Assembly (NCBI RefSeq): GCF_000214375.1
Contig: NC_015578.1
Location: 1,922,001-1,986,000, forward strand
Direction of reading: 5' to 3'
From: Treponema primitia ZAS-2
GTDB taxonomy: Bacteria; Spirochaetota; Spirochaetia; Treponematales; Breznakiellaceae
DNA: 64,000 nucleotides
Positions 24,916 through 58,373 of the stretch are shown piece by piece. Numbering within the stretch: position 1 is the first letter of the stretch; each line of letters opens with the position of its first letter. The position numbers were made by a program, and so were the translations under genes. The notes beneath the pieces were generated by a model. It was given only the letters and a program-made list of their open reading frames with translations, ran no database searches and had not been told where the DNA came from.

Positions 24916-24995
24916 TTCCTTACAACGTAAGGAATTAACTCACTTTGGGGAGTGAAGGATTCGAACCTACGAAGGCGTAGCCAACAGATTTACAG
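24916..24995 (-). repeat. Left attachment repeat (displaced tRNA-Tyr 3' end)
   Basis: Identical to 58262-58341 except one base (T/C in ACAACG[T/C]AAGG). Identity ends exactly at the anticodon stem, a usual crossover region for tyrosine integrases. From 24996 to 25228 no gene is seen; the stretch holds TTGGTC/TTGACC-like short repeats that could be integrase arm sites. Confidence 0.88.
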
Positions 24996-43910: not shown

Positions 43911-44460
43911 AAACCGACACCCTGTGCCGGACCTTCCGGTCACTTCGTTCCCTCCAGGCTCCGGCACCGCTCTCCATTTTCCGCCCTGATCCTCTAGGCA
44001 TAATCACCAGAGCTTAGAGGATATGGCAGACCAAAACGACCGTTACTGTTAAAGGGAGTGTGGGTGCCGGGGTTTTTTACGTTGGTCCGAAGGGCCAGCG
44101 CAAAAAATGGCGGCAGGACCAGCATCAAAAAGACAAGACACCTCTCGTACTAAGTTCACCCCAAGCCGCGCAACCCTCAAGATCATCGTACTCCGGTAGT
44201 GGTTTAGGGACGGCATCCATAGTCCATCCCCCTTGCCGCTGAAATAGCCTTTTGTCAACAGGTCCAAAAAATTACAAGTTCCCGGCGTCAGCCATGCTCA
44301 GCTGAGAAAGTGCACTTTTTTGCAAGATATTGAAGTTTGCCGGAGAGTGATCCTTACACGCCCGGACCATTTTGGTTACCTCAGCCGCATCGCAGGGGTT
44401 GAGCTTTTGCCCTGATAGTATTGTCAAAATCCTGCTTTTTTGCTAGTGTTAAAGTAACGG
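43911..44460. other. GC-rich gene-free mosaic, part of a dispersed repeat family
   Basis: No supported gene. Base composition is far more GC-rich than the flanking AT-rich defence genes. It contains CTTCCGGTCACTTCGTTCCC and a 76-bp stretch (44165-44240) repeated at 51909-51984. It looks like pieces of the block at 50.5-52.9 kb. Confidence 0.5.
44165..44240 (+). repeat. Dispersed 76-bp repeat, copy 1
   Basis: 64 of 76 bases match 51909-51984 in the same orientation; the conserved core is ATCGTACTCCGGT and the end CCCCCTNGCCGC. The copies lie on either side of the HATPase/DUF3883 gene and the IS256 element. Confidence 0.65.
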
Positions 44461-44523: not shown

Positions 44524-45507
44524 ATGGGATTTAAACAAGATATAGATAAAATAATCGAAGGTAACCTAAAAACTTATAAAGATAATTCCGATAGATTTAT
44601 TGCCGATTATAACCATGAATATGAATTGACAAAGGAGTACAATGGTAGACAGCTATTAGAACTCCTTCAAAATGCAGATGATGCATCCTCTGCTGAAGTC
44701 AAAATCGCTTGGAATAAAGAAAACAGAAAACTCACTATTTCAAATAAGGGTAATGAGCCATTTCAAGTAGGTGGCTTAAAATCTCTAATGCTCGCAAATT
44801 TTAGTAGCAAAACAAAATTAAATTATATTGGGAATAAGGGTTTGGGATTTCGATCTATATTGAACTGGGCTGAAAAGATAAATATTCGTAGTAATGGCTG
44901 TATCATATCGTTTTCTGAAATGATCGCTAAAGATGTGTTTAACAATCGACTTGCTTTGTCAAAAGAAGCAAAACAAAAAATAAGGGCAGAGAGAAATTTA
45001 TCGGAACAAACAATCCCCTTTCCTATATTGGCAATTCCAGACGTTAAAGAAGTATCATTAGAAAATGATTGGACTACTGATATTGATATTACATATAGAA
45101 AAGAATTTGAAAAAGATATTGAAAACCAATTGGCAGAATTGCGGGAAGAAATATTATTATTTCTTAATAATATTAAAAAGATAACAATACAGAGTGAGTC
45201 AAAAACAATAGAGTTTCAAAGTGAAAAAAATAAGTCTGGTAATTTTGAATCAATAACCATAAAGGGGAAAAAATGGAAAGTATTCTCCAAGGAAGATATG
45301 TTGCCGGATGAATATCAGGATAAAAATAAAAATGAGGTTCAAGCCTACAATCTCAAAGTTGCTTTTCAGGATGATTTATCCGATGACTATGGGAAACTAT
45401 TCAATTTTTTCCCAACACAATTATCTGTTTCTTTGCCTTGTATAATCCATGGAACCTTTGATTTGAACAGTAATAGGAACCACTTGAATGAATTAAAAAT
45501 AAACTAA
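44524..45507 (+). CDS. Sacsin-like HATPase part of a HATPase/DUF3883 protein, ended by in-frame TAA
   Basis: 327 residues. The GHKL-type ATP site is clear: GRQLLELLQNADDASSAEVKI (N-box), then IGNKGLGFRSILNWAEKINI (glycine box). It ends at TAA 45505-45507, yet the same frame goes on without another stop for about 1195 codons, giving FILDELVQLLKHCALFLADQ directly after. The stop therefore interrupts one gene of about 1520 codons. Large HATPase-DUF3883 proteins occur in defence islands; the ATPase may gate a C-terminal nuclease. Confidence 0.78.
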   Translation: MGFKQDIDKIIEGNLKTYKDNSDRFIADYNHEYELTKEYNGRQLLELLQNADDASSAEVKIAWNKENRKLTISNKGNEPFQVGGLKSLMLANFSSKTKLNYIGNKGLGFRSILNWAEKINIRSNGCIISFSEMIAKDVFNNRLALSKEAKQKIRAERNLSEQTIPFPILAIPDVKEVSLENDWTTDIDITYRKEFEKDIENQLAELREEILLFLNNIKKITIQSESKTIEFQSEKNKSGNFESITIKGKKWKVFSKEDMLPDEYQDKNKNEVQAYNLKVAFQDDLSDDYGKLFNFFPTQLSVSLPCIIHGTFDLNSNRNHLNELKIN

Positions 45508-45525
45508 TTCATCCTGGATGAATTA

Positions 45526-48500
45526 GTGCAACTGTTAAAACATTGTGCTCTGTTTCTAGCTGATCAACACATTGATTGGCGTCCATATAAATTACTCAGT
45601 CCTTCATCCTCCTCCTCTGATTCAAAATTAATAGAGAGATTTTATAAAAAATTAGACGATTTAAGGCAAAAAGAAAGTATTTATCCTAGTGTTGATAAAG
45701 ACACAAAATATAATATACGTGAAAATGCATTTTATTATAATGATGATTTTAATGGTTTTTTTGAGAAGAATTTTCCCCAGGTATTCCCGGGATTAACATT
45801 GCCTATTACTGATAATGGTATACATGATATTAAAAACAGGGTTTTCTCCCATGAATTCTTAATAGAAAAAATTGACAAGCTGTCAAAAACAGGAATGAGT
45901 ATTCAACTTCGCTCAGACCTTATCATTCAGCTTTCCGGTATTATTGAATTCAAAGAAAATCAAGAACGTTTTTCACTTTTGATAAATAAATTTAATAAAG
46001 TAATAACAAAGGATGACTTGGCGTTCACACCCGTGTTAAGTTCGGAAGAAAATCTTGAAATTCCAGCATTGGTAAAAATCGATTTTATGGATTTTGATTT
46101 GTATCAGTTATTAATTTTAAAATTGGAAAATAAATTTGATAAAAATGAACCAAAAAACAGAGAATTGCAAAGAAGCATAAAATCGGTTGTTAATTTGCAG
46201 CCATATGATAGTAACAATGTAATTGAAAAAATAATTACAGGTACAAATGCCGCATTAAAAAATACTTCTAATGCTGAAAATAAAATTACTTATATTAAGG
46301 AGATGGTGGCGGCACTGTATAGTAATTTTAAAAACATAGAAAACCGACAAGAAAAAGTAAAAATCGCAGTTCCTCTTATTTCAAAGGAGAATACCATATG
46401 CAATTCGGAAAATTTATATTTAAGTGAATCATATCCAAGCGGCCGGCTGACAGAAATCATTTTTAAAGACATATTCCAGGCTAAGGAATATTTGCTGCCA
46501 ATTAATCTCTGGAAAATAAATGATGATGATCATAATTTTATTGAAAGCTTCTTTTTATGGCTAGGTGTTAACAGATATTCAAAAATCGTTACCTTTGATC
46601 TTCAGAATAATTGGCTCGAAAGCGATTATATTGATTTTATTTTTAAAAATGGAACATATCGTCCTGAAAACTTTGACATTAACAGAATAAAAAATTCGAT
46701 AGTATCAAAAATAGACGGATTTGATAAAATACAAAAGCTGGATATTAACAAAATAATATTGCTGTCGTTAAAGGATTCTTCAATCAGAACACTGCTTGAG
46801 ACTAATGATGAGAAAATAGATTGGTATTATAATAAAGGACGGGAACCAATAATAACAAATTTTTCTTATATTCGTTATCAATTTATAAATGCTAATATTT
46901 TTACAAAATACATTTTAGAAGCAGGGAGCGATGATTTAAATAAATTAATAAATCAAGATTTTATGATAGACTATGAATTTTTGAGCAAGTTCGGAATTAA
47001 CAAAACCGAAATAAAATCAATTCTCATAAAGCTAGGAGCAAAAGAATTTTTTAATGAGCTATCCCCTGAGAATATATATAAAATTTTAAAAGAAATACCT
47101 CAAAAAGATGAGGCTAAAAAAGGTAAGGCTACCCAAACAATTTATAGAATGGCGTTGGAAGTTTTGGTTGCCCGGGAGTCAACTTTTCCTATACCGGAGG
47201 ATATACAATATTTTACGCGAAGGGCAAAAGTGGAGGAATATAAATCGAGATCAGATGTTTATTATACAGATAATTCTATTTTACCCAAGAAAATATTAAA
47301 TACCCTGCCTATGTTAAATTTGCCTAAAAGAATTGGAGAAGATAATGTAAAAAAATATTTTGGCGTAAATAATGTCAAGGAATTTAAAATATTTATAGAG
47401 GATGAACAAAGCGTAAAATTTAATCCTTGTGATAGTGATTTAAACAAATGGTTTGATACTATAAAACCTTATATACTTGCATATAGATTGGATCCTCCAA
47501 ATCAAAAAAAAGGCGTTGCGGATAATGATAAAAAAAGAGAAGATGCAAGGATATTAAAATCATGTAAAATCCATGTTGTGACCCAATGTGATTTTCGGTT
47601 TAATAATAATAGAGAAACCCTTGAAGAAAAAGAATTCATAAATATAAAAGATATCTTTTACTTTAAAGAAAGTTCTATTCTTAACATAGATGGATTAAAA
47701 AAGGATTCTGAGTTTTGTGATTCTTTTGCTGAAATGATATGTATAATTTTTAAAATAAATGATTTAAAAAATGATTTTAGGCAAATTTTCAGAAATGATA
47801 TTGAAGATACACGCCATTTGACTTATCAGGATTTAGAAAAAGAAAAGATTGAAGAAGCTTTCCAATTATTAGGAATTTCACGGGTTGAAATTTATTTTTG
47901 GAAAGTTATTTTTGAATTAAAAAACAAAAAACTAATTGAGCCAATTGAAAATATAGAAATCCTTAAACAAAATATAAAATCCATTATTGGAATAACTATT
48001 CCTGATGGATATGGGAATGTAGATTTTGAAAATTTCAATAATAATGAATCTTATGAATTTATCTCTTTATTGTGCAATGAATTACAACTTTCTGTTGAAA
48101 AAGTGTTACCTGATAAAGGTCTTTGCAATTGGCATAGGAAGAAATTTATGGATTCCATAAAAGATAATGAATATAAATTCAGTCAAATTTTATGGCAAAA
48201 CCTTAATATAGCCAAAAAAGATCAATGTTCATTCATAGCTAAACTAAACAAATATAATATCGATTTTATCAATAGTATCGAAAAAGAAATAAATGAGTGT
48301 AAGTTTGATTTAGCGATTGATTATCGAACAATAATAAAAGAGAAGATAAACGATTGTTTTGCAATTGATATAGACGCTCCCTTACAAGTTCACATCAATA
48401 TTAAAAATATGTATGAAAATTTATTAAAAAAATATAGTATTGAGGAAGGTGATATTATAGATAAATCTATTTCGAGCCTGCTGTATTTTGAAGGGAATGG

Positions 48501-49092
48501 TAAAGTTATTGATGATTATTTTTCTAAAAATTTTGTCCATGATGATGGCGAAGGTAATCAAAACAATAAAGACTTAAATTCAATTGGTTCGTTGGTTGAT
48601 GCTACAGTAAGCAAAAATAGGAAATCCATACAGGTTTCTTCAAATAGTGGAAGTGGAAATTGGATTTATTCAGGGCTTAGTGATACAGGAAAAAGAAAAA
48701 AAGGAAAAAGTGCAGAAGTATTGGTTTACAATACATTAGTTAAGAAATATGGAATTAATAATGTAAGATGGGTTTCTGGTAATTCAATAACACCGGATAA
48801 AAATGATAGATTGCATTATGATATAGAGTATAAGAATGAAACTGGTGAATGGAAATGTCTCGAAGTGAAAGCTCTAACTGATAATCAATTTATTATTTCT
48901 GCTGCAGAAAAGGAATATGGAATCAATGAGCCTGATAAATTTGAAATGGCTCTTGTAAAAGAGGATATAATTTTTATGATTAAAAACATATTTAAATTTG
49001 AACCGGGGGAAACATTCGAAAATAATACAAAATTTGTGGCACAGGCTAAAGATTATATTTTTATCTTTGAGTTAAATTCCTTGAACTTGTAA
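45526..49092 (+). CDS. Main part of the HATPase/DUF3883 protein, with nuclease-like C-terminus
   Basis: 1188 residues from GTG 45526, in the same frame as the HATPase piece. The long middle is helical and unrecognised. The C-terminal DUF3883 (NOV) domain shows KGKSAEVLVYNTLVKKYG, then DIEYKNETGEWKCLEVKAL, a PD-(D/E)xK-like D...E-x-K arrangement, so a nuclease is plausible. GTG 45526 has no good ribosome-binding site, so separate translation is doubtful. The complete open frame suggests the upstream TAA is recent or is read through. An IS256 element inserted directly after the stop. Confidence 0.78.
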   Translation: MQLLKHCALFLADQHIDWRPYKLLSPSSSSSDSKLIERFYKKLDDLRQKESIYPSVDKDTKYNIRENAFYYNDDFNGFFEKNFPQVFPGLTLPITDNGIHDIKNRVFSHEFLIEKIDKLSKTGMSIQLRSDLIIQLSGIIEFKENQERFSLLINKFNKVITKDDLAFTPVLSSEENLEIPALVKIDFMDFDLYQLLILKLENKFDKNEPKNRELQRSIKSVVNLQPYDSNNVIEKIITGTNAALKNTSNAENKITYIKEMVAALYSNFKNIENRQEKVKIAVPLISKENTICNSENLYLSESYPSGRLTEIIFKDIFQAKEYLLPINLWKINDDDHNFIESFFLWLGVNRYSKIVTFDLQNNWLESDYIDFIFKNGTYRPENFDINRIKNSIVSKIDGFDKIQKLDINKIILLSLKDSSIRTLLETNDEKIDWYYNKGREPIITNFSYIRYQFINANIFTKYILEAGSDDLNKLINQDFMIDYEFLSKFGINKTEIKSILIKLGAKEFFNELSPENIYKILKEIPQKDEAKKGKATQTIYRMALEVLVARESTFPIPEDIQYFTRRAKVEEYKSRSDVYYTDNSILPKKILNTLPMLNLPKRIGEDNVKKYFGVNNVKEFKIFIEDEQSVKFNPCDSDLNKWFDTIKPYILAYRLDPPNQKKGVADNDKKREDARILKSCKIHVVTQCDFRFNNNRETLEEKEFINIKDIFYFKESSILNIDGLKKDSEFCDSFAEMICIIFKINDLKNDFRQIFRNDIEDTRHLTYQDLEKEKIEEAFQLLGISRVEIYFWKVIFELKNKKLIEPIENIEILKQNIKSIIGITIPDGYGNVDFENFNNNESYEFISLLCNELQLSVEKVLPDKGLCNWHRKKFMDSIKDNEYKFSQILWQNLNIAKKDQCSFIAKLNKYNIDFINSIEKEINECKFDLAIDYRTIIKEKINDCFAIDIDAPLQVHINIKNMYENLLKKYSIEEGDIIDKSISSLLYFEGNGKVIDDYFSKNFVHDDGEGNQNNKDLNSIGSLVDATVSKNRKSIQVSSNSGSGNWIYSGLSDTGKRKKGKSAEVLVYNTLVKKYGINNVRWVSGNSITPDKNDRLHYDIEYKNETGEWKCLEVKALTDNQFIISAAEKEYGINEPDKFEMALVKEDIIFMIKNIFKFEPGETFENNTKFVAQAKDYIFIFELNSLNL

Positions 49093-49097
49093 TTTTT

Positions 49098-50365
49098 TTA
49101 GTGTAAACGGTAATCATAGGGGGACTCTGTCTTCCCCGTAAATGATTGCGAATTGATTGAGGGCAGCGCCCCAATCCCGTATAGGCATTGTCCATTTTCT
49201 GGAAATGTTTTTCAAGCCCATAAAAATTAATTTCACCGCAGCCTCATCGTTTGGGAAAGACTGGCGGTGTTTGATAATTTTTTGAATCGTGTAATTAACC
49301 GATTCAATGGCATTGGTAGTATACACCGCCTTCCTGATTTCAGGTGGGAATTTGAAAAACGGTATGACCTCGTTCCACCGGCTCCGCCAGGACTTTGAAA
49401 TCATCGGGTATTTTTTATCCCACACTTTTGAGAACTCGTCCAGCGCTTCGGCGGCAAGTTCCGCTGAAGGAGCCAGGTAAATAGTTTTGAGGCTGGCTGT
49501 CACCGCCTTCCGGTCTTTGTAGGGGACAAACCGAACTGAGTTTCGGACCATATGGACGATGCAAAGCTGGACCTCGGTTTTGGGGAACACCGCGGCAATG
49601 GCGTCGGGAAAACCGGTCAGCCCATCGACGGCGGCGAAGAGGATGTCCTGTACCCCCCGGTTTTTGAGTTCATTCATAATGCCCATCCAAAACTTGGCCC
49701 CTTCGTTCTGCTCAATCCAGAGCCCTAACAGCTCTTTCTGGCCGTCCAAACGTATCGCCAAGGCCAAATAAACGGATTTCTTGACTACCGCAGCCCCATC
49801 GCGGATATTGACCCGCAGCGCATCCAGGAAAACTACCGGGTAAAAGGGCTCAAGAGCCCGCCCCCGCCATTCGGCTGCCAGTTCCTTAACCTCATCGGTT
49901 ACCCGGCTGATAAGCTCAGGCGAGACGTCAACCGCGTAGATATCCTTGAGGTGATCTTGAATCTGGCGGGTAGTAAGCCCAAGGGCGTACATCGAAAGGA
50001 TTTTGTCATCGAACCCCCGAAACTCCCGCTGGTGTTTGGGAACAATTTGAGGCTCGAATGTCCCCTCCCGATCACGTGGGACTTCGACCGGCATCGGCCC
50101 GTGGTCGGTCCTCAGCTCTTTGCTGTTTTTGCCATTCCGGCGGTTCGAGATTTGTTTTTCACCCGGGTCGCTTTTCTCATACCCAAGATGCTCGGTCAGC
50201 TCAGCCTCCATCGTCCGCTCCACCAGCGCTTTGGTCAGCTGCTTCATGATCCCTTCGGGCCCGTAAAAGTCATCGGGCCCATGGTAGTCCTTCAAAATCT
50301 CGTCCAGGACTTCTTTTGAAAAGGCCATACTTGCTCCTTCTAGGTAGTATAGCCGTTTACACTAA
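49098..50365 (-). mobile_element. IS256-family insertion sequence
   Basis: Terminal inverted repeats TTAGTGTAAACGG (49098-49110) and its complement (50353-50365) match over 13 bp and enclose one transposase gene. Flanks are AT-rich and no unambiguous target duplication can be read. Total about 1.27 kb, intact. Confidence 0.9.
49114..50328 (-). CDS. IS256-family transposase
   Basis: 404 residues, full length for the mutator-type family. Catalytic residues are visible: Asp in VVFLDALRVNI, Asp in FAAVDGLTGFP, and Glu in TTNAIESVNYTIQK. The conserved ELTEHLGYEK start and the CIVHMVRNSVRFV segment are present. GC content resembles the host more than the AT-rich neighbours. It appears functional. 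Confidence 0.95.
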   Translation of the reverse strand: MAFSKEVLDEILKDYHGPDDFYGPEGIMKQLTKALVERTMEAELTEHLGYEKSDPGEKQISNRRNGKNSKELRTDHGPMPVEVPRDREGTFEPQIVPKHQREFRGFDDKILSMYALGLTTRQIQDHLKDIYAVDVSPELISRVTDEVKELAAEWRGRALEPFYPVVFLDALRVNIRDGAAVVKKSVYLALAIRLDGQKELLGLWIEQNEGAKFWMGIMNELKNRGVQDILFAAVDGLTGFPDAIAAVFPKTEVQLCIVHMVRNSVRFVPYKDRKAVTASLKTIYLAPSAELAAEALDEFSKVWDKKYPMISKSWRSRWNEVIPFFKFPPEIRKAVYTTNAIESVNYTIQKIIKHRQSFPNDEAAVKLIFMGLKNISRKWTMPIRDWGAALNQFAIIYGEDRVPL

Positions 50366-51908
50366 TTTTGTTACAGGCTCAATTCCTTAGTCAACGGCTA
50401 ATATTTATATCCAGAATGTGCTATAAATAATGTACTGCCCAATCCAAACTTGTTGTTTTTAAAGGAGCATATAAGTTAGTCCTTACATATGATCCACAAG
50501 AATCCTCAGCCATAAGGGTTGTACTACCCCCTATCGAGGGATTAAATCGCCCGTAACCGAAAACTGCCCAAAAATCGCTCCGCCCGATTGCTGCCGAAAG
50601 ACCGAAGAGATAAAAGCTTACGGCGTAAAGAATTCAGGCCCATCCAAGCCACCGTATATCGCCGCCATCCCCTGCATCCTCCGGCCCTGTCGGCGCTCCG
50701 CACCGCCAGCACCAACAGAGGCCTCCCCTGCCACCATTTCTCGCTACCCTCGGCCCTTGCCCCATCTACCGGCGGGAATAGCACCGGCCTTCACCGCATA
50801 CCGTTACCGAATAAAGAAGCGACAACTGTCGCCATCAGCCCCTCAAGCAGCCACCTTTATTCTCTGATACTCCAAAACCGGGCACATCATTCCCAGGGTG
50901 GACCCTCCCCGGCACGGCCCTTCCGGTCGCTCCGCTCCCTTCAGAACCGTACCAGTCCGGTCCACCCCTAAAGCTTTTCTTCATACACCGGAACTTCCGG
51001 CGTACAGCGCCTACAGTCCCGGCGTTGCCCTCCCTTTTTCCGCCTGGTCCTTCGCATACCGCAACCTGGACCCGCTATTCGCCGCCTGCAACCCGGCGTA
51101 TACCGAATTCGTAGGACAAAGCGCCATAAGCCGTTCCGGTCGCTCCGTAAACTCCGCTCCCTCCACGGCCCATGGCGCTTTACCCATTAACCAAGGGGGA
51201 TAAAGGCGGGGACACCATCATTCAAACCGGAAGCCGTTTTCCCAACAGTAAAGCTGCCAACCCAGGCGGCCCCGCCTTCCCCCTTGACCCCCATAACCAC
51301 CCGGCCCACCCAATATGCGCCAACACCCGCCGCCTGCCTATGGCAAGCGGCGCCTTAGCTGTAAAATTAACCGGGTCCGAAGATTGCCCATGAAAACCAC
51401 ACCCCCCATTTTGAAGCCTTTGCCCGTAGCCTCCAAAGCCGGGGCATAATTCCCAGCGGCCCTCCATTGCCCTATACCGTCCAGCCCTCATGGGGACTAA
51501 ACCGCATGGGGCAATTCCGCGCCGCCTAAAGCCTGCCTCAGCCGGTGGGATCCTCCGGCGCTGCGCTTCTCCGGACACCACCGGCCCCCATCTTTTCCGC
51601 CTGGTCTCCCGCATACCGCCACCTTCACCCTATGCCGCCGCCTGGTCCTTCGCATACCGGGGCCGTCATCCCCAAATCGCCGCACATCGGCCTCTATCCC
51701 CACAAGCCATTATCCCCAGCACTCCGGGGGCGTCCTGCCCCCTCCGCGCCGCATGGCGGCTAATCCTCACGCCGCCATGCGTACCGTTATCCACACAAGC
51801 AGTTATTCTAACGCCCTACCGGGTGCCGATGCTTCGCCCGTGTAAACCCTATTCCCATCGGCTTTTCATAGCACCGTGGGGAGAAATGCGTACAGTGCCC
51901 ACCCTGGG

Positions 51909-51984
51909 GCCGCGCAACCTTCAAAATTATCGTACTCCGGTGGTGGTGTATGGACGACCTCCATTGTCCCTCCCCCTCGCCGCC
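51909..51984 (+). repeat. Dispersed 76-bp repeat, copy 2
   Basis: 64/76 match to 44165-44240. A shorter inverted relative (GTGGTGGTGTATGGACGA on the minus strand) lies near 52255-52275, so the family occurs in both orientations. Confidence 0.65.
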
Positions 51985-52014
51985 GGGCTTCCCCCACTAA
52001 AAGAGAAAAAGGAG

Positions 52015-52137
52015 GGGTTTTTTCCACTGTCCCAGCGCCCATTTTATCTTCAAACTAACTTTCCCTGGCTATCGCCACTTCTACTATCACTTTTAGCATT
52101 GTATCCCTGGGGGGCGCTGGGACAGTGGAAAAAACCC
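52015..52137. repeat. Mini-element with perfect 26-bp inverted ends
   Basis: 52015-52040 and 52112-52137 are exact reverse complements (start GGGTTTTTTCC, end CAGCGCCC). They enclose 71 bp of AT-richer sequence without a gene. It could be a MITE-like insertion or the stem of a large hairpin. Confidence 0.6.
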
Positions 52138-52192
52138 TTGCATCCACGGCTCATAGGGGGAGGATCAGCACCCGGCGTGGCCGGGAGCTGAT

Positions 52193-52236
52193 AGGAAAAA
52201 AACCACACTGGCGTCCATGCCAGTGTGGTTTTTCCT
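52193..52236 (+). terminator. Strong hairpin with T-run
   Basis: AGGAAAAA..CCACACTGGC pairs with GCCAGTGTGGTTTTTCCT around the 6-nt loop GTCCAT; the left arm has two extra A. The form is that of an intrinsic terminator usable on either strand, though no gene runs into it. Confidence 0.5.
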
Positions 52237-52380
52237 CCCAGGCGGCGTCCTGCCGCCTCGTCCATACACCACCACAACGGGGAGTGGTAAGCCCACCCGG
52301 ATTTTCGTCTTCCCATGAAGCTCAGCGAACTTTGCCCACGGCTGACGCAAGTGTAAAACCCCCATCACTGTTATAAAGCC

Positions 52381-52830
52381 TTCGCTTACCGTTACCATCA
52401 CTGCCAAGAACCGCCACCCCTTCGGGCAGGCGGCATAAACCCACAGCAGAAACCATCATCCCCCAAGAGGCTCCGCCTACTTCCTCCGTAAACCAGCCAC
52501 CCTACGGGAGGCTGGCCGCTTCTCCATATTCGCTTACCGCTACCATCACTGGCAAAGACCGCCATCCCTTCGGGCAGGCGGCATACGACCACGGTGCAAA
52601 CCATCGCCCCCCAAGAGGCTCTGCCCACTTCCCCCGTAAACCAGCCACCCTGCGGGAGGCTGGCCTGGTCCTCATCTTCGCATACCGTTACTATCAGTGC
52701 CAAAAACCGCCACCCCTTCGGGCAGGCGGCATGAACCCACAGCGGTAACCCCATCCCCCCAAGAGGCTCCGCCTACTTCCTCCGTAGAACCCGCCCACCC
52801 CTACGGGGAGGGCGGGCCGATACTCCGAAC
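52381..52830 (+). repeat. Three tandem 148-bp units, each with two palindromes
   Basis: Units start at 52381, 52529 and 52677: the period is exactly 148 bp both times. Each starts TTCGC.TACCG, has the palindrome CCGCC-A-CCC/GGG..GGCGG, then AAGAGGCTC.GCC, then a second palindrome CAGCC-A-CCC/GGG-A-GGCTG (in the third unit changed on both arms to a GC-richer stem). The paired changes in both arms suggest the fold is kept. No open frame is conserved. Confidence 0.7.
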
Positions 52831-53442
52831 ACCGCCCCCCTTGCGGGGGACGCCGCAATACATAACCAATGACAGAAACCCCTCAAACCAAGCCAATTTT
52901 TCAGTCATTCATGACACCCCGCCCCGGCATTTTTTTGAACCAAGCGAGGAGCGCATGTGCGCCCCCAATGATGTATGGTCAGTGCAGGATAAAGCGAAAT
53001 TTGGAAAAGTCCCTATAGGGCTTTTCTTTCTTATATACTTTCTCTTTTTTATGTCTTTATGCTACACAAAAAGAAGAATACTACATTGTAAAGAATATAA
53101 AGGATATTATGTCCTTAGTTCAAATAAATTTTTGTTTGGTATTTTTTTTTACGAAGGGGGCGTGCGCGTCCCCTAAAATTGCTCATTTTTGTTAGTTTTG
53201 TTATTTTTTAATGCAGCCCTGACTTAAAGTATCGAAAATCGTATCATTTAAGACCATCACAGACCGGTAAAAATAAACACAGACTACAAGAAAAAAAGAA
53301 CTCATGTTTTCTTGATGGCCAAAACAGAAAGGGGCGCGGGGAAACCGGAGACAGTAAATATGATATTAGGAGGTATAGGCTCAATAAATGTCTTTATTTC
53401 GATAACTTATCAAGTCTAACCAAAACCTTTAAATCGTAAATA

Positions 53443-54879
53443 CTATTCCTTGACCGTAATATTAACCCAATGACGCGCTTCGCTGGTTCGTTTCTGAACA
53501 ATTCCCAGCTCCTTTAAACGCATCCCAAAGAACTTTTCAGAACAAGCATGTTCATTGTTTTCTTCGCACCAGCCATGGTAGCATATGAAAAGCTCCCGTG
53601 ATCGTATGCTCACACCCGGCTTCTGCTCACAGCGATCCTTTATAAAGCTGCCGATAATGTCCATTTCCTCCCGGTATTCATCGGTAGCGCTTTTTACTTC
53701 CGCAGGTATGGCCAATCCTTCTGTTTTCCACCGCATGGCCCCTTTAATAAGCCAGTTTAATATACCCGATGATTCAGCAATAAGTTTATCCCCTAAATGA
53801 AGATCCCTTTTGGCTTCGTCAATCGTGGTATTAAAGGGGATAGTTCTGATCCGCCGCCAAATCCCATGATCGGTCCCGGTAATCGTGGGCTTATGGTTTG
53901 TGGCCATGAATATCTTGAAAGTCGGAAAGAAATCAAAATATTCCCCGTACAGGAACCGGGCAGTCATCCGGTCATTGCCGGTGATCTGTTTAATCAAGGA
54001 TTCCGACAGCCTCCGTCCCTGTTCTGCTTCCGTGGTAGCGACAAAATGCATACCCCGCAGCCGGGCAATATCATTGCTGATTCCATCCCCCTGCCGCCGC
54101 ATAAAGGTTTCAGTCGGGGTAGAAGTCGCATAATCCCCCAGGACATGCATGACCACATTGATACAGGTACTTTTGCCGTTTGCCCCGTTCCCGATAAGGA
54201 TAAACATGACCTGCTCGCTGGTGTCGCCCGTTATACCCCAGCCAAGGGCAGTTTGCCAAAACCTAACCAGCCCGCCTTTAAACTCCATTATTTCCCGGAT
54301 AAACAGCTCCCAGAGGGGGCATTCTGCTTCAGGCTCATACGAGACGTTTGACATCTTGGTGATAAAGTCTTCCTGCCGGTGTTCCCGGAATTCTCCGGTG
54401 GTCAGATTTATCGTCCCATTTTTGACATTGAGCAGAAAAGGATCCCTATCCAAATCATCAACTTCAATGTTCAGAGCTGGAATAAGGCTTGCCGCTTTGA
54501 TAAAGGCATCCCGCCGCCGCATTGATTCACTCTGTATAGCCGCTTTTTCAATAGCGTCTTTTTCGTGATAATCCGCCGTGGTAAGTATTTCATCATAGAT
54601 GGAGCGGATCATTTCCAAACCTTTTTGATGAATCAATGAGCCCTTGTCTATCTTCCAGTAGGAACCATTCCAGACCAGCCATTTTTTCCATTCCGGTACA
54701 TAGCGGATATCTGTTCCATACTTTTTCATAAGCCGTTCCGCATTGGATGTGTCGGTAAACTGAAACAGCCCCTGTTTCAGCATGTGGACCCGAATCAGAT
54801 CGTTGTCCTTCTCCTGGATATTTTTTTGTTCACGGAAACCTGCGGCTGTTTGCCGCCCATAATTTGAATCGTAACCCAT
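53443..54879 (-). CDS. D5/P4-type phage or plasmid primase-helicase
   Basis: 478 residues. The D5_N region (PLLINVKNGTINL-like: FLLNVKNGTINLTTGEFREH) is followed by an SF3 helicase: Walker A IGNGANGKSTCINV, Walker B-like FVATTEAEQGRRLSE, motif C FKIFMATNHKPTI and the HGIWRRIRTIPF arginine finger. A C-terminal winged helix follows. The TOPRIM-type primase half of full P4 alpha is absent. ATG 54879 overlaps the preceding stop by one base (TAATG), so it is coupled to that gene; 54930 would be an upstream alternative. It probably drives replication of the excised island. Confidence 0.9.
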   Translation of the reverse strand: MGYDSNYGRQTAAGFREQKNIQEKDNDLIRVHMLKQGLFQFTDTSNAERLMKKYGTDIRYVPEWKKWLVWNGSYWKIDKGSLIHQKGLEMIRSIYDEILTTADYHEKDAIEKAAIQSESMRRRDAFIKAASLIPALNIEVDDLDRDPFLLNVKNGTINLTTGEFREHRQEDFITKMSNVSYEPEAECPLWELFIREIMEFKGGLVRFWQTALGWGITGDTSEQVMFILIGNGANGKSTCINVVMHVLGDYATSTPTETFMRRQGDGISNDIARLRGMHFVATTEAEQGRRLSESLIKQITGNDRMTARFLYGEYFDFFPTFKIFMATNHKPTITGTDHGIWRRIRTIPFNTTIDEAKRDLHLGDKLIAESSGILNWLIKGAMRWKTEGLAIPAEVKSATDEYREEMDIIGSFIKDRCEQKPGVSIRSRELFICYHGWCEENNEHACSEKFFGMRLKELGIVQKRTSEARHWVNITVKE

Positions 54880-55214
54880 TAAAACCCTTCCTTCGCTAAT
54901 ACAGCGCTGTACACTTTGAAAAAATAACACACCTGGTCAAAGACGATTTCCTTTACCGCAGGCGGCATATCCGCCTGGACCCGTTTTTTTGTTTCGTACA
55001 GGAGACACAAGCTGCCGGGCTTTTTCTTCCACTCCTCATTGATGAAATAAACTAATCCCCGGTACACATCGTCCGGTGGGTCGATACGCTTTGTCTTGAA
55101 TAAAGTCAAAGCGGTATGAGCCATAAGCGTTTCATCAGTGAGGAATTCATCCAAAAGCCGCCGTTCCTTCCGGGTCTTGAACAGATGCCGTTCCCTGTCG
55201 TTCTTAAACCTCAT
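54879..55214 (-). CDS. Small island protein of unknown function
   Basis: 111 residues, charged and helical (MRFKNDRERHLFKTRKERRLLDEFLTDETL), with no motif I can name. ATG 55214 is chosen because GGAGGG stands just upstream. It overlaps the following primase start by one base and the preceding small gene by 11 bases, so it belongs to the replication operon. Confidence 0.7.
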   Translation of the reverse strand: MRFKNDRERHLFKTRKERRLLDEFLTDETLMAHTALTLFKTKRIDPPDDVYRGLVYFINEEWKKKPGSLCLLYETKKRVQADMPPAVKEIVFDQVCYFFKVYSAVLAKEGF

Positions 55215-56805: not shown

Positions 56806-58161
56806 TTATGCCCCTTTTGGTTCCGGGAACTTCAAAATACCCCCGAATACTTCACGCCCAACATTGCTGACTTCCTTGATGTTGTCTTCGGTAATATGGT
56901 CGGCGTATTGGTCAAAGACGGCACGGCTCTTGTGCCCGGTAATGCGGGTCAACTGTTCCGCAGTCATACGGTCGCTCATCCTCGCCGCCCAATAGTGCCT
57001 CCAGCTATGGAACACAATATTCCGTGCTTTCCAGTCAATCTTCTCTAGTTCCCGGCCTTCTTTTTCAAACTTCTCATTCAGTTTTTTAATGGCATCATGG
57101 AGACCGTCAAGGATCAAGTCATCCTGGCAGGGCTTTTCATTGGTCAGGCTGTAAAAAATATAGGCGCCCTTTCCATGCAGGGTTTCCGCTTCATCGACAA
57201 GCGCCAATAGTTCGGTCTTTATTTCGGGGTACAAAGGAGCTTTGCGTTCATCGCCATTCTTTGGGGTTTTAAGCCCGTCCAGGCGGCTATAGGAATGGCG
57301 GATGTGCAGGCTTTGCTCCCCGATATCCTCACGCCGCAGCGCCAGAATCTCCCCGGCCCTCATCCCGGTTGTTGCCGCCACCTTGTTTGCCAGATAGGCG
57401 CGTTTTTCCGCCCAATCAAGATTGAATATGGCCTCGGCTTCTTTTTCGGTCAGGATCCCCCGCTTTGCAGGTTTACCACTAAACCGGGCAATACCTTTGC
57501 AGGGGTCCAGCGGAATATACCCCTCTTGGGCAGCGTACGAAAGGGCGGATGTACCCAAGACCATTATCCCGTTTATGGTTGACGGGCTGCGCCCGGTATC
57601 TGAAAGCCCCAGGCTGAAAGTTTTGATATCCTGCCGAGTGATAGTATTCAGCGCCCGATCCTTGAAAAAGGGTTCCCAGTAGTTTACTACCCGGCCATGG
57701 TTTAACGTGCAGTGGTGCCGCCCGATACTATGCCCATGGGCAAGCTTGTCCCGGACATAGGGGCTTTTCTCATAGTCCCAGAATTCCTTGAGGTAGTCGA
57801 TAAATTTGACATTTCCCTTTCCGGTGGCAACGACCGGAATATCAATCAGGCCTTTAGCCCTGAGCGCCGCCACGATGGCAAAAGCGTCATCCCGTTCCAG
57901 GACAGCCTTTTTGATGGCCGAAAGAATACCGGCCCGGTCGGCGACAACGCTTATGGGCTTGCTTTTGGAACTCTCCGTCCCGGCCAGGTAGCCCGGCTGT
58001 TTGACCACGGGCAACCCTTCTTTGAGCCAATCGGCCACCACCAGCAAGGCTTCGTCCCGTGTCTTTTTGCCCGTACTCCGTGCATTGAGCTTGACCCCGG
58101 CGGTCGTTATAAGCTCGGCGTAGAACACCGAGCCCCGCTTATGCAAATAAAACCTGCGCAT
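56806..58161 (-). CDS. int: Tyrosine integrase of the island
   Basis: 451 residues. N-terminal arm-binding part, a core-binding SAM-like domain (FFKDRALNTITRQDIKTFSLGLSD), and the catalytic domain with Arg in TTGMRAGEILALRRED, HSWRHYWAAR, GHKSRAVFDQY. Start ATG 58161 is chosen because AAAGGA stands upstream and it matches the start of the integrase fragment at 24830; 58242 would add an unlikely leader. Catalyses integration into tRNA-Tyr, whose 3' end begins 131 bp away. Confidence 0.93.
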   Translation of the reverse strand: MRRFYLHKRGSVFYAELITTAGVKLNARSTGKKTRDEALLVVADWLKEGLPVVKQPGYLAGTESSKSKPISVVADRAGILSAIKKAVLERDDAFAIVAALRAKGLIDIPVVATGKGNVKFIDYLKEFWDYEKSPYVRDKLAHGHSIGRHHCTLNHGRVVNYWEPFFKDRALNTITRQDIKTFSLGLSDTGRSPSTINGIMVLGTSALSYAAQEGYIPLDPCKGIARFSGKPAKRGILTEKEAEAIFNLDWAEKRAYLANKVAATTGMRAGEILALRREDIGEQSLHIRHSYSRLDGLKTPKNGDERKAPLYPEIKTELLALVDEAETLHGKGAYIFYSLTNEKPCQDDLILDGLHDAIKKLNEKFEKEGRELEKIDWKARNIVFHSWRHYWAARMSDRMTAEQLTRITGHKSRAVFDQYADHITEDNIKEVSNVGREVFGGILKFPEPKGA

Positions 58162-58261
58162 AAACCCCATCCTTTGGGAAAAGGCTTTCTCATACCTTTT
58201 CTCATAGTGATTTGATTGACGCGCAGGTTTTACCTGTAGCATTCTCTCTTTACAGTTTCTA

Positions 58262-58341
58262 ATTCCTTACAACGCAAGGAATTAACTCACTTTGGGGAGT
58301 GAAGGATTCGAACCTACGAAGGCGTAGCCAACAGATTTACA
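58262..58341 (-). repeat. Right attachment repeat within tRNA-Tyr
   Basis: 79/80 identical to 24916-24995. It covers tRNA-Tyr from the anticodon to the 3' end and 30 bp beyond. After island insertion the tRNA stays whole because the element supplies this 3' half. Confidence 0.88.
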
Positions 58342-58373
58342 GTCTGCCCCCTTTGACCGCTCGGGAAACTCCC
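58292..58373 (-). tRNA. tRNA-Tyr (GTA)
   Basis: 82 nt with acceptor stem GGGGAGT/ACTCCCC, anticodon loop CTGTAAA (anticodon GTA), a long variable arm and GGTTCGAATCC T-arm. CCA is not encoded. Integration site of the island. Confidence 0.95.

Follow-up and report, generated by a model that had tools for sequence, protein, structure and literature searches.

A tandem hairpin array beside a Treponema primase gene as a probable domain of a large modular structured RNA

Close to a primase gene of Treponema primitia ZAS-2, three tandem units of 148 bp, each with two GC-rich hairpins, raise the question of what such an array is for. The window, meaning the whole stretch of DNA analysed (64,000 nucleotides), had been described in an earlier note that offered three readings of the array: origin, termination zone or structured RNA. 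The reading as a structured RNA held, and those of a termination zone and of an origin within the array were not supported. Beyond that note, the array proves to be one domain of a structured region of 1.3-1.8 kb, and the strand used is the minus strand. It is likely that the array represents the tripled domain C of a large, modular, structured non-coding RNA carried by temperate phages and satellite-like islands of Treponema.

Units and hairpins of the array

The three-unit architecture, with an exact period and two GC-rich hairpins per unit, was confirmed by two methods. TRF reports one array at 52381-52807 (period 148, 2.9 copies, score 599), and a repeat search of the window places the unit starts at 52381, 52529 and 52677, spaced by exactly 148, with identities of 100, 84 and 76%. 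The elements of the array are as follows.

52381-52830, minus strand: putative domain C of the RNA in triplicate, one tandem copy every 148 bp and hairpins H1 and H2 in each (repeat search and homologous loci)
52493-52515, minus strand: hairpin H1 of unit 1 (stem, U-U mismatch, stem, GNA loop)
52641-52663 and 52790-52816, minus strand: H1 of units 2 and 3
52411-52433, minus strand: hairpin H2 of unit 1, GC-rich
52559-52581 and 52707-52729, minus strand: H2 of units 2 and 3

The A-A mismatch said to be common to both hairpins is exact for H1, in which A-A on the plus strand corresponds to U-U on the RNA strand, whereas H2 carries an adjacent C-C as well. The stem noted as altered on both arms in the third unit, with pairing kept, is H1, where CCAGCC..GGCTGG has become CCCGCCC..GGGCGGG and both mismatch and pairing are preserved. 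Because this stem is longer, unit 3 measures 153 nt if cut at the hairpins. Among 12 H1 hairpins compared, pair 1, which adjoins the mismatch, occurs as CG, AU, UA or GC, pair 3 as CG or GC, and pair 4 as GC, AU or GU; the mismatch is U-U in 11 hairpins and G-G in one.

Taken as a whole, the C array folds no better than its shuffles (z -1.45), and its structural support is therefore comparative. Most homologous loci contain one C domain, L070 contains two and the window three; L141 apparently has two diverged units, judged by eye. Since H1 covaries and keeps its U-U, and since most loci hold a single C, the 148-bp array is, on this comparative evidence, a tandem expansion of one structural domain of what would be a larger RNA. 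The lack of a conserved reading frame was also borne out, as 148 is not a multiple of three and no frame is common to the units.

A tandem, palindromic and GC-rich arrangement could also belong to a dispersed intergenic repeat of the REP/BIME or MITE type, without function for the element carrying it. Copies do exist elsewhere, and the earlier note would have counted their absence as a refutation; this genome has them at three more prophage loci, and many other genomes have them too. The three relatives in the same genome (2,122,970-2,123,239; 2,185,887-2,186,029; 2,038,405-2,038,627) each occupy the gap on the 3' side of a D5/P4-type primase gene, within a prophage-like region. Apart from short hits at chance level, array matches in this genome are confined to the four primase loci, with a constant place in the element, which makes a dispersed repeat improbable in the extreme. 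The many copies between host genes that mark REP/BIME-like repeats are not seen, and this candidate was rejected. The copies cluster at 1.97-2.19 Mb of the 4.06 Mb chromosome, for which the prophage context accounts well enough.

A conserved, non-coding and modular region on the minus strand

The array is the C domain of a non-coding region at about 51,105-52,840, located 3' of the D5/P4-type primase gene. In the 5' to 3' direction of the minus strand, the order is an AT-rich leader with TGACA sites, C, B and A. Modules C, B and A were aligned one by one rather than as a whole region, and the core alignment of B comprises 27 loci from related Treponema genomes. The modules outside the array and the helices of the core are listed below.

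51870-52363, minus strand: domain B, the core supported by covariation (27-locus alignment; z -8.7 for the fold of the window's core)
51105-51860, minus strand: domain A, the 3' module, best conserved in part A3 (51107-51306)
52335-52342 with 51873-51881, minus strand: helix P1, 100% paired and nearly invariant
52258-52275 with 51940-51957, minus strand: helix P2, which closes the core, 96.2% paired
52219-52234 with 52197-52212, minus strand: helix P4 with loop AUGGAC, 97.2% paired
52166-52190, minus strand: helix P5, both-side changes at 7 of 12 pairs, 21 events
52154-52164 with 51968-51978, minus strand: helix P6, 97.6% paired
52015-52137, minus strand: helix P8, 98.6% paired

Compensatory base changes in the core stand above the null expectation. 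Across the 27 sequences, 93.6% of cells are paired and both sides have changed at 43 pairs in 205 cells, compared with 60.6 cells in shuffles and 17-53 in slid controls. A previous alignment of 16 B sequences had given 95.1% paired cells and 101 both-side changes, versus 28 in shuffles. Mapped onto a tree derived solely from the unpaired columns, the changes require no fewer than 139 independent compensatory events, versus 18-48 with slid partners; slid and shuffle controls of this kind fall short of a full R-scape test. P2 shows both-side changes at 15 of 18 pairs and 54 independent events, and P4 at 13 of 16 pairs with 43 events. P1 is weak evidence because it is nearly invariant; like the long invariant tracts, it offers no variation and hence little information. 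The 3' side of P6 carries the near-invariant GGGGGAAGCCCGGCGGCGAGGGGGAGGGACAAU. In the window and in L071, P8 is extended to a 26-bp stem (52112-52137 with 52015-52040), so that the 26-bp inverted repeat of the window is a longer form of this conserved helix. Consensus folds were also obtained for A, from 8 sequences only.

The proposal of a termination zone can be weighed against the same helices. A cluster of intrinsic terminators guarding against read-through would explain the GC hairpins, and A and U tracts do flank P4. However, this lone A/U-tract hairpin still pairs in L148 and L154, where the U-tract is largely replaced, and P4 sits inside the covarying closing helix P2. The terminator scan found terminator-like sites at shuffle level. 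With no conserved U-tract and no excess of sites, the terminator zone was rejected, and this explanation is now very improbable.

The strand was assessed through wobble pairs. On the minus (primase-sense) strand, G-U occurs at 32 pairs versus A-C at 15 (p 0.019), in a fold from which G-U is barred, so that neither strand is favoured; taken by itself the test is only moderately significant, with 18 versus 8 pairs (p 0.076) when just the 27-row alignment of B is used. Folding energies point the same way, with RNAalifold values for minus versus plus of -245 versus -229 for B and -266 versus -216 for A, and single-sequence folds of 1,776 nt at -867 versus -679 kcal/mol. Because the energy gap partly reflects the G-rich minus strand, the wobble test is the cleaner evidence. 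The minus strand, which also encodes the primase, is well supported as the strand of the RNA. Covariation and strand-specific wobble pairs in the core, together with the compensatory change in H1 of the adjoining repeat, uphold the suggestion of a structured RNA, and a structured RNA on this strand is very probable.

Coding capacity was considered for this region and ruled out. Gap lengths divisible by three number 45 of 758 in B and 39 of 258 in A, and stops interrupt nearly all frames of both modules. As the frames are broken and the indels rarely come in threes, the region is non-coding.

Positions 51,060-52,840 keep 70-89% nucleotide identity between prophages and between species. Between the window and L071, DNA identity reaches 88% in the RNA region and only about 66% in the neighbouring primase. 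Because the RNA region outscores the adjacent gene within the same elements, this difference suggests that the RNA region may have been exchanged among prophages or may be more strongly constrained.

The modules also vary independently. C lies directly 5' of B in most loci holding both, and module A is missing or not detected in several loci, some of them with B. In L067 (6514-6920), L070 (11261-11945) and L073 (8918-9265), the core is replaced by another structured module, B', which forms long G/C-rich helices (consensus fold from 3 sequences only) and is flanked by the same C and A modules. Such behaviour might indicate two or more separate RNAs (C+B and A), or else local structures of regulatory function within a long untranslated extension of the primase mRNA. 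The shared orientation with the primase, the B loci without A and the exchange of B would all fit. On the other side stand the contiguity of C and B and the arrangement in L144, where the adjacent upstream gene is divergent and co-transcription is therefore not general. Separate RNAs or an mRNA tail are thus considered unlikely, though they carry some weight, and modules C, B and A probably form one transcript.

Fragments of modules B and A occur elsewhere in the same island (44144-44240 and 50855-51086 of the window) and are apparently remnants or partial duplications. Short motifs, such as GGUAUGCGAAGG, UUUACGGAG and the hairpin loops AGGAC/AUGGAC, recur across the RNA modules (51105-52840), as if one tertiary contact were reused.

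The island and the AT-rich stretch upstream of the RNA

The genomic setting of the window copy is defined by the following features.

24929-58342, no strand: integrated island of about 33 kb, with a 67-bp perfect direct repeat at either end (24929-24995, 58276-58342)
56806-58242, minus strand: tyrosine integrase of the island
53443-54930, minus strand: D5/P4-type primase-helicase gene, in the same orientation as the RNA
52850-53140, no strand: AT-rich stretch with TGACA/TGTCA sites between primase and RNA, a candidate promoter/operator or origin

The 67-bp repeat overlaps the 3' end of a tRNA-Tyr gene. The cargo includes Type I restriction-modification, GmrSD-like (HEC-05), AAA/SMC-like and TmtA-like genes besides the integrase and primase, and no capsid or terminase was found among the island genes examined. 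With an integrase, a primase and defence genes, and neither capsid nor terminase among those genes, the island looks like a satellite or defence island. Its TmtA-like defence gene (44524-49092) is interrupted by a single in-frame stop codon located between 45507 and 45526, and both parts fit the same PADLOC model end to end. Identical IS256-type transposases lie near the 3' side of the RNA in two elements (window 49114-50328, L009 655-1869).

In most loci the RNA is found 3' of the primase, in the same place and orientation. The usual gene order is tail-like genes, a small ORF, the primase and the RNA, all in one direction; in L070, terminase genes come after. Terminase, tail-like and primase genes adjoin several RNA copies, as expected for carriage by phages and prophages. 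That primase is missing from L141 and L144, which do have the RNA.

The remaining proposal was an origin, taken here as a cis-acting DNA element of the phage or island. In this view the hairpins would act as single-stranded DNA, and the AT-rich TGACA stretch would be the unwinding and initiator-binding region. The adjacent primase-helicase gene agrees with this idea in most loci, as do the TGACA/TGTCA sites, which over 17 loci number 59 versus 17 expected (3.5-fold), and the GC content of the stretch, which falls to 7-20% over 60 bp in most of them. The H1 loop on the minus strand is GNA, a loop that is stable in DNA too. However, the sites lie in the upstream AT-rich stretch rather than in the 148-bp units, the structure occurs without the primase in L141 and L144, and the G-U tolerance favours RNA. 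A multi-helix structure of 0.4-1.7 kb with tandem-variable and swappable modules also exceeds the needs of known origins. A DNA origin as the explanation of the structured region is distinctly improbable.

An origin inside the array, which the earlier note considered, gives way to the AT-rich stretch as the better candidate for an origin or a promoter. That stretch may be a promoter/operator or the element's origin; its composition beside initiator-like sites would suit an unwinding region and is compatible with a promoter/operator as well. It holds palindromes such as TGTCATAAATGACA and is also present in the primase-less L141. A weak promoter match lies on the minus strand at 53123-53094, and the count in the promoter scan is not above chance.

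If the modules do form one RNA, the AT-rich leader would drive a single transcript of 1.3-1.8 kb. This molecule would act in folded form during the replicative or lytic phase of the element, in the manner supposed for GOLLD and ROOL. A core that can be exchanged and a C domain that can be repeated suggest a role as a scaffold or in assembly rather than as a riboswitch or a single ligand site.

Distribution and comparison with known systems

The RNA appears to be restricted to one bacterial family. A covariance model of part of B matches 26 of 200 family genomes; further relatives of the array lie in G034, a related genome of 3,855,671 bases. Among 393 sampled genomes of the phylum, the only matches are the two family members known beforehand, and the RNA was found nowhere outside the family in this sample. 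An exact-pattern scan of 84,980 species returned 15 loci; the titles name Treponema or a spirochaete for 14 of them and Bacteroidales for the remaining one. We take these to be termite-gut genomes, the Bacteroidales title presumably being a binning error. Pattern scans gave only one viral contig (L094), which matches the same prophage as L071. Searches of phage and plasmid records gave no homologue of the RNA region, a primase search of IMG/VR gave no relatives, and Rfam 15 gave no family match even at permissive thresholds, with the GOLLD and ROOL models included. No description of such an RNA was found in the open-access papers searched. This large folded RNA gene of Treponema viruses and mobile islands is apparently undescribed so far, and its fold is strongly conserved.

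Only a handful of large structured bacterial RNAs without an assigned function are on record, and for two of these, GOLLD and ROOL, the formation of RNA cages was recently demonstrated. Another such family, present in cultivable Treponema with variable domain number and swappable cores, would open a route to the function of these phage RNAs and to the parts that they require, and four primase-linked copies of differing make-up in one genome provide a ready natural experiment. The boldest reading, offered tentatively, is that giant phage RNAs of a new class are present here, 1.3-1.8 kb long, with interchangeable modules and a domain that is tandemly amplified in some elements, possibly forming an RNA-only particle in the infected cell. 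If so, they would surpass GOLLD, ROOL and OLE RNAs as so far described in size, and their modules would be shuffled between co-resident prophages.

Phage P4 also has repeats near a P4-type primase gene, where its origin and crr repeats are located. In the Treponema elements, by contrast, strand-specific structure is conserved and the repeats themselves are without the initiator-like sites, which are found outside them. Abundant long non-coding transcripts from an orf-less stretch are described for phage ICP1 and for its PLE satellites (PMC7567579). Those transcripts were found by RNA-seq, and that of PLE lies between inverted repeats; the likeness is one of description.

GOLLD is a large, ornate RNA of phages and prophages, many examples exceeding 800 nt, with a conserved and a variable half and a function that is not known (PMC12286853). 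The Treponema RNA resembles it in size, ornate structure, carriage and lack of a known function, but differs in having no Rfam match at permissive thresholds. GOLLD usually lies near tRNA islands, whereas 11 of 13 Treponema loci are without any tRNA and the tRNA-Tyr of the window island is its integration site. The conserved part of GOLLD is the 3' one; here C and B are best sampled, A is variable and B is swappable, and the tandem C domain is absent from GOLLD as described. Expression of GOLLD rises during lysis. ROOL, likewise an ornate large RNA of prophages and phages with no known function, forms an RNA-only cage (PMC12286853). It differs again by the lack of an Rfam match, and a ROOL example measures 659 nt, versus the modular 1.3-1.8 kb found here. 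A role like that of GOLLD or ROOL is conceivable but somewhat doubtful. By the tests run, the Treponema RNA is a new, unusually modular family of the loose GOLLD/ROOL kind and a member of neither.
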